DNA of 6,937 bases from Gammaproteobacteria bacterium (GTDB lineage Bacteria > Pseudomonadota > Gammaproteobacteria > SZUA-152): assembly GCA_003229995.1 (NCBI GenBank), contig QIGJ01000223.1:1-6937 (forward strand), written 5' to 3'. The position numbers and the translations under genes were made by a program. Positions within the stretch are counted from its first letter, which is position 1. Each line of letters begins with the position of its first letter. Under the pieces are notes generated by a model that made no database searches, was not told where the DNA came from, and worked only from the letters and a program-made list of their open reading frames with translations. This document shows, in pieces, positions 1,648-1,966 of the stretch.

Positions 1648-1966
1648 TACCGCTAAGGCGAAGGTTGGGCTTGAGGCGCTAAAGGGCGTGAAGATGATCA
1701 ACGAAATTGGTTAGGAATGGGCACGAAATAACTTCCCTGTTTGGCGCCCGGATTTAGTGCGACTTCGTTCGTTCTGATTGAACAAAAGTGCAGGTGCAGG
1801 GATAGTCGTTCTATTTCGAGCTTTTGTGATTGAGGAACGGACGAAGACGGGTTGAAGCCGGGATGCAAAACAGGGAAGTTGTTTCGTGCACGTTCCTTAG
1901 GAACATGAGGTACACCCCGTGCAGGTAAGGCAGTAGAAAAAGGCGATACTATCCAATATCATTTAA
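1640..1966 (+). pseudogene. IS3-family transposase orfA remnant, split by an inserted palindromic element
   Basis: The frame from 1640 reads DHSTAKAKVGLEALKGVKMI then NEIG and a TAG at 1712. After the palindromic insertion the same protein resumes at 1904 as HEVHPVQVRQ, a TAG at 1934, then KKAILSNII. This matches the helix-turn-helix N-terminus of IS3-family OrfA (pattern 'HS-EFKAKVALEALKG-KTINEIA---VHP-QV-QWKK'). The first TAG replaces a probable Gln codon and the second a Trp codon. An ATG at 1617 followed by GAGAAACGG may be the original start, now out of frame. Only about 45 codons survive; the rest of orfA, all of orfB and any clear terminal inverted repeats are absent. The fragment is dead and sits where the third cassette's attC should be. 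Confidence 0.75.
1711..1903. mobile_element. ~180-bp palindromic, MITE-like element with flanking 7-bp direct repeat
   Basis: Arms 1713-1788 and 1821-1897 pair along almost their full length: 56 Watson-Crick pairs, 7 G-T pairs, 13 mismatches and one bulged base (A1867). The longest perfect stretch is AACTTCCCTGTTT (1730-1742). TTAGGAA occurs at 1711-1717 and 1897-1903. Deleting one copy plus the intervening DNA (186 bp) joins IS3 orfA codons NEIG-stop-E to HEVHPVQV in frame, which shows an insertion. Because GGAA is also the end of the left arm, the duplication could be as short as TA or TTA, with an element of about 183 bp bounded by GGAA and TTCC. No open reading frame is inside. No parent transposon is recognised, and the element could equally be a mobile structured RNA. 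Confidence 0.72.

Follow-up and report, generated by a model that had tools for sequence, protein, structure and literature searches.

A 183-bp palindromic element within an IS3-type orfA relic: a probable MITE, with an ISAzo13-type transposase as the likely agent of its movement in trans

The stretch of DNA analysed here (the window) comprises 6,937 nucleotides of a gammaproteobacterial contig (QIGJ01000223.1, assembly GCA_003229995.1). Positions 1-1650 resemble a gene-cassette (integron-like) array, with a PIN-domain gene at 76-489 (PF01850), an ORF at 578-946, a transglutaminase-core gene at 970-1647 (PF01841) and, by eye, attC-like inverted repeats near 480-545 and 955-995. On the plus strand lies an IS3-type orfA relic in two pieces, the left one (VDHSTAKAKVGLEALKGVKMINEIG) at 1637-1711 and the right one (EHEVHPVQVRQ) at 1901-1933. 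Between them is a palindromic element of 183 bp at 1714-1896, which runs from GGAA to TTCC and is adjoined on each side by TTA (1711-1713 and 1897-1899). A member of another inverted repeat family (GGTGGAACCGCTGCGCTTGTTCCACC) occupies 2003-2028; this family also occurs elsewhere in the genome, at L161:5142-5270 and 14723-14952.

The outer parts of the element read GGAATGGGCACG...CGTGCACGTTCC, and its terminal inverted repeats, GGAATGGGCACGAAATAACTTCC on the left (1714-1736, plus strand) and GGAACGTGCACGAAACAACTTCC on the right (1874-1896, minus strand), are identical at 20 of the 23 outermost bases. A sequence-only reading of this locus had taken the arms for near-complete inverted copies and the palindrome for one that spans the whole element. 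The inverted arms and their full-length extent are real, but the palindrome is imperfect and near-completeness was overstated: the outer 33-nt arms (1713-1745 and 1865-1897) are 88% complementary, whereas identity over the whole length of the arms, from a minus-strand self match of the element, is approximately 70%. Folded as single-stranded DNA, positions 1690-1920 gave -55.6 kcal/mol (z -8.9), which none of 200 shuffles equalled. The consensus structure of 30 copies places an apical stem-loop at 1799-1817 on the plus strand (1799-1805 paired with 1811-1817, window positions hand-counted from the alignment), within a core that is common to copies of differing end types. No gene was recognisable in the element, its sole overlapping ORF of at least 50 aa being one of 56 aa, and Rfam gave no match for it at E<=1. 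We orient the element on the plus strand, that of lower predicted RNA folding energy.

Taking out 186 bp (183 + 3) leaves a single frame, ...KMINEIG*EHEVHPVQVRQ, through both pieces of the relic. Searched by tblastn, the 37-aa peptide across this join (with X at the stop) matches 37 plasmid records with E<=0.01. Among the best eight of these 37, a Methylobacter stretch with no annotated feature matches at 74% over 31 aa, gap-free across the join, and a gene of Acidithiobacillus caldus annotated 'IS3 family transposase' matches at 68% over 34 aa, also gap-free. The earlier claim that removal of 186 bp rejoins two halves of an IS3 OrfA in frame is thus upheld, and the uninterrupted IS3 homologues are the putative empty site of the insertion. 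A Pfam search with the 37-aa peptide, a very short piece, found no match. The family of the host IS3 gene, PF01527, had 0 matches in the element's own genome, and among 16 loci from a PF01527 search in the genus one matched the relic below E 0.01 (39%, E 5e-4).

The element is not a single occurrence, and the expectation of other copies in the same genome and its relatives was borne out. Its own genome (2.21 Mb in 392 contigs, 82% complete) contains at least 83 matches to the 193-bp query, counting both strands of the palindrome and with 40 of 192 candidates scored. Allowing up to 3 mismatches, the 23-bp end was found there 185 times (91 forward, 94 reverse) and the reversed pattern in neither direction (0 and 0). 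Relatives of the element are present in 16 of 57 genomes and, within the order, in 14 of the 24 genomes searched, its own included in both counts. One exact end, searched against named genomes, was found in 76 stretches, which include Leucothrix mucor isolate HyVt-493, Thiotrichaceae, Cocleimonas, Methyloprofundus, a Bathymodiolus symbiont, Cellvibrionaceae, Woeseia, Sedimenticola, Massilia psychrophila and others, where an exact end match does not by itself mean that a complete element is present. Viral contigs contained no exact match to the end or core patterns, and plasmids and phages no stretch similar to the element at E<=1e-5.

Some of these copies depart from the type seen in the window. 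Palindromes of 46 bp that consist of the two ends only, with no core (L223:3944-3989 and L184:2791-2836), may be elements of minimal size or scars left by deletion. In longer copies (L225:4569-4770, L152:6431-6643, L161:8359-8560, L162:15948-16182 and L027:597-812) one arm contains an insert of type GCATGGATGCAGGAGGTAGAGC, which is diverged in L161 and resembles another dispersed repeat. The assembly of the element's own genome seems to break at palindromes, with nine contigs starting near the element centre (C79, C82, C90, C102, C123, C185, C255, C256 and C272 begin approximately 84-88 bp from an element end).

Most copies have duplicated flanks. Among 101 distinct paired elements, chosen without regard to flanks, the two 3-bp flanks are the same in 88 (TTA in 49, TAA in 37 and ATA in 2) and differ in 13, where chance would give equal 3-mers in approximately 1.7% of pairs. 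A list of 42 elements that had been picked for equal flanks does not serve to count duplications. By source, identical flanks were found for 28/29 pairs in the own genome, 9/15 in relatives and 51/57 in named records. The 86 TWA duplications are preceded by C in 57% and followed by G in 47%, hence the target looks like CTWAG. In one case (L020:1502-1655) a type-A copy, that is one with the ends seen here, is nested within a related palindrome and has TTA on either side. The sequence-only reading had noted TTAGGAA on both sides of the element; the TTA stands as a 3-bp target duplication, whereas GGAA is no part of it, being the element's own end on the left and host DNA on the right, so that the four-base agreement is due to chance. 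Taken together, the many same-ended copies, the duplication in 88/101, the uninterrupted IS3 homologues and the nested insertion corroborate that a small element was inserted here in a transposition-like event.

The same reading could not assign the ends to a transposon family. On comparison, they match the ends of ISAzo13-family insertion sequences. A record of the Bathymodiolus brooksi methanotrophic symbiont (L227) holds a broken element of 1318 bp with GGAACGTGCACGAAATAACTTCC at both ends, with which the ends of the window element agree at 21/23 (left) and 22/23 (right) bases. The broken reading frames of L227 match PF07592 (DDE_Tnp_ISAZ013) in 2 of 3 pieces (4e-26 and 1.3e-63) and the NCBIfam model NF033519 (transpos_ISAzo13) in all 3 (3.6e-13, 5.1e-29 and 1.2e-69). 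L227 sits between two similar transposase-like ORF pieces and is flanked by TAA and TTA. No clean duplication is present at this insertion sequence, which shares the type-A ends. In genomes G017 and G014, nearly the same ends (20-21 of 22 positions) are found 0.3-0.6 kb from PF07592 pieces (L249, L259 and L261). In three further loci (L245, L246 and L264), PF07592 pieces neighbour ends of a second type (GGAATRRGRWTTAAATAACTT); of these, L245 is an intact ISAzo13 copy flanked by CTA and TTA. No intact ISAzo13 copy with type-A ends was found in the genomes and loci examined, and an end-pattern search of eight relatives gave MITE-sized pairs and single ends only, with no kilobase-spaced pair.

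The resemblance to L227 reaches further inwards in some MITE copies of G017. The right end of copy L050, GGAACGTGCACGAAATAACTTCCCGATCTTG, is identical to the right end of L227 over 31 bases and matches it at 32 of the first 35, whilst the left end of copy L036 tracks that of L227 up to CTTCCTGA. On this comparison, the G017 ends are those expected to persist in a derivative formed by deletion from such an insertion sequence. For copies in the element's own genome, agreement with L227 stops nearer the element end than in G017. Plasmid-borne ISAzo13 loci have similar features: 4 of 6 (L281, L282, L283 and L286, from Thiothrix fructosivorans, Methylomonas sp. AM2-LC, Calothrix and Streptomyces goshikiensis) have paired ends that start with GG and TTA on both sides, the Thiothrix locus having GGAACTGTCCCGAAATAACTTCCC at both ends, and two (L284 and L285, from Polaromonas and Rhizobium) have no convincing paired ends. 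The ranking of candidate ends in these plasmids favoured equal flanks; a ranking without that preference gave the same repeats. ISAzo13 is described as making 3-bp duplications (PMC10045372).

PF07592 also co-occurs with the element. It was found in 6 of 57 genomes, all of them within the 16 that bear the element (Fisher p 2e-4), and within the order in 6 of 24, all within the 14 that bear it (p ~0.02, by hand arithmetic); kinship confounds this association, and a PF07592 match is lacking from 10 of the 16 genomes that bear the element. The element's own genome, at 82% completeness, gave no match to PF07592, so that a local transposase either no longer exists or is encoded in the portion that the assembly lacks.

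The element is short and without a transposase gene, and it has terminal inverted repeats, a target duplication and many dispersed copies, as MITEs do; moreover, its ends are common to an autonomous insertion sequence, as seen in the broken L227 and in the single ends at L249, L259 and L261. Since the ends match ISAzo13, the flanks are TTA and PF07592 co-occurs, the 183-bp element is very probably a MITE that reached this site through the action in trans of an ISAzo13-type transposase.

We aligned 30 chosen near-full-length copies from several genomes, fewer than all the copies found. The alignment supports 66 consensus pairs on one strand versus 42 on the other. Double changes were observed in 24 of the 66 pairs, with 110 cells compared with a mean of 30 in shuffles, and 97.6% of cells are compatible with pairing against 92.2% in shuffles, and pairing drops to 38-49% when partners are slid by 1-3 columns; this consensus structure was derived from the same alignment on which it was scored, which favours structure. 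Predicted RNA folding energy is -99.5 for the plus strand of the window element and -71.6 for the minus strand, and over the 30 copies the means are -99.5 and -69.4, the plus strand being lower in 30/30. These copies are related by descent, and 30/30 is therefore not 30 independent events. Aligned in mirror fashion and without recourse to energies, the consensus has fixed mismatches of 7 G·U, 0 A·C and 12 others (7 : 0, two-sided p 0.016). Among majority Watson-Crick pairs, columns with any G·U outnumber those with any A·C by 36 : 16, whereas singleton changes show no bias (19 GU : 14 AC). We take the G·U bias as a tentative hint, and not as proof, that a single-stranded fold is under selection in the lineage that spreads.

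A second MITE lineage, the 161-bp Leucothrix type, has the same ends around another core and makes up 45 of the 101 pairs. It too forms a near whole-length hairpin with lower RNA energy on the plus strand in 41/41 copies, folding having been confined to those of 158-167 bp (41/45). Here the bias in fixed mismatches is weak (5 GU : 2 AC and 9 others; columns 27 : 24). Common descent of the copies restricts the weight of every one of these counts. At L170:3078-3212 and L199:691-825, a 135-bp element has the same ends around another hairpin (AGAGGGCGTATGCAATACGCCCCTAC and its reverse complement), showing that these ends also carry hairpins unrelated to each other. Conversely, sister palindromes with the window core and other ends (GGAATGGAAATTAAATAACTTAT; GGGACGGAACACAATAACTTAT) are found at L156 (contig C21 of the own genome, 689-820), L041, L055 and L068. 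In the type-B-ended copies (L055 and L068) and in a third type (L041) the core is the same and both outer arms have changed together. By sequence comparison, one hairpin core thus appears to carry at least two end types that resemble different ISAzo13 copies. A further proposal, which we put forward as speculative and on balance doubtful, is that a single RNA-folding core rides different ISAzo13 subgroups by swapping its two terminal repeats together, and that selection maintains it for a strand-specific, single-stranded fold on which its spread depends; the core, and not the ends, would then be the unit of inheritance. One core with several end types and a strand-biased fold would bear on why bacterial MITEs are often long hairpins.

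These folding data are also the ground for a different emphasis, in which the mobile element is in addition kept as a structured RNA or ssDNA hairpin whose fold in one orientation aids its spread or serves the host, perhaps as a 3′ hairpin or a site of processing. The strand difference in consensus pairs and in energies, seen again in the second lineage, the 7 : 0 excess of G·U and the double changes all speak for it. Against it stand the relatedness of the copies, the structure counted on its own source alignment, the 12 other mismatches, the unbiased singletons and the weak bias of the second lineage. The genomic setting adds little to it: of 63 distinct matches of at least 100 bp, 1 lies inside an ORF of at least 100 aa, 18 lie at contig or locus edges and 44 have both neighbours, by rough gene calls (ORFs of at least 100 aa). 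These 44 copies lie between convergent genes in 14 cases, divergent genes in 5 and tandem genes in 15 and 10, by orientation; the upstream gene is co-directional with the element in 29/44 (p 0.049), but the tandem cases alone, at 15 : 10, are not significant (p 0.42), and Rfam is silent. We consider such a retained function unlikely.

Other sources for the palindrome fare worse. IS5 ends (GGAAGGTGCG...) are similar to those seen here, which would suit a MITE derived from the IS5 group. However, duplications made by that group are 4-bp YTAR whereas the duplication here is 3 bp, and at an IS5-type locus the nearest paired repeats agree at 11/20 positions; this origin is very improbable. Among the matches listed for the genus or relatives, loci of PF05598, PF01609 and PF13359 have no transposase between such ends, and we rejected them as parents. 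Paired ends sought 500-3000 bp apart in L001-L148 yielded MITE pairs and unrelated repeats only. The whole-length hairpin, and the upstream PIN and transglutaminase genes with their attC-like repeats by eye, might point to an integron attC site or to a palindrome of REPIN/RAYT type, yet attC and REPIN elements are not known to leave such duplications. The equal 3-bp flanks in 88/101, the common GGAA...TTCC ends and the nested insertion make either identity more improbable still; for an integron attC site, the duplication and the dispersal of the copies are the grounds for setting it aside. Lastly, the palindrome lies inside an orfA relic and might have been native to this IS3 element. The best IS3 relatives are uninterrupted at the site, the palindrome is found at the same codon in none of the best eight of the 37 matches, and copies occur in many other places; a native origin, which the sequence-only reading had itself named as the outcome that would overturn an insertion, can practically be dismissed.

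For the preferred reading, mobilisation by ISAzo13 in trans, we propose the following course. A transposase encoded by an ISAzo13 copy at another location in the cell would bind the ~23-bp ends and cut the element out or copy it. The element would then be joined to a staggered cut at TTA/TAA, repair of which would yield the 3-bp duplication. The palindrome itself may have arisen through inverted duplication beside the ends. Because no ISAzo13 gene was found in the incomplete assembly, the copies in the element's own genome may be relics of past bursts. The ISAzo13 family would thereby gain multicopy MITEs in uncultured gammaproteobacteria. As the ends are defined, the target resembles CTWAG and there are candidate parents, cross-mobilisation is directly testable.

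Compared with the ISAzo13 insertion sequences, the MITE shares ~23-bp ends of type GGAA...AATAACTTCC and the TTA on either side that is seen in 4/6 plasmid loci. It differs in having no transposase gene and in its length (183 bp versus ~1.3 kb), and no palindromic core such as that of the MITE was seen in the ISAzo13 insertion-sequence copies examined. Tourist/PIF-Harbinger MITEs such as mPing are likewise short, non-autonomous elements that are moved in trans and make a 3-bp TWA duplication, but they are eukaryotic and depend on another transposase family. RUP and ERIC duplicate TA, unlike the TWA found here with an ISAzo13-like partner. RUP, ERIC and QMITE2 resemble the element in being short and without a transposase gene, in having transcripts predicted as stable stem-loops and in sometimes being nested, according to a 2024 review of prokaryotic MITEs (PMC10969869) in which ISAzo13 is not mentioned. 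Among titles, opening lines of abstracts and passages on ISAzo13 together with MITEs, no description of such an element was recognised. A passage of a paper on insertion-sequence distribution places ISAzo13 in 3 gammaproteobacterial genomes of its set.

Closer in setting is the sulfur-oxidising Ca. Thiomargarita nelsonii, for which multicopy MITEs are described, one of them a large hairpin; its authors found no ISfinder parent for them, PFAM07592 is named among the transposase genes, and the paper makes no mention of ISAzo13 (PMC4853749). By description, its two MITEs differ from ours, one account giving 10-bp direct repeats and the other TATAG/TATA ends (PMC4853749), as against a 3-bp TWA duplication. 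Zator is described as similar to ISAzo13, with 3-bp duplications in both (PMC10045372), and is paired with ISAzo13-like elements (PMC5718144); Zator elements are eukaryotic DNA transposons. Set beside these systems, the element is one more MITE, with an unusual modular core.
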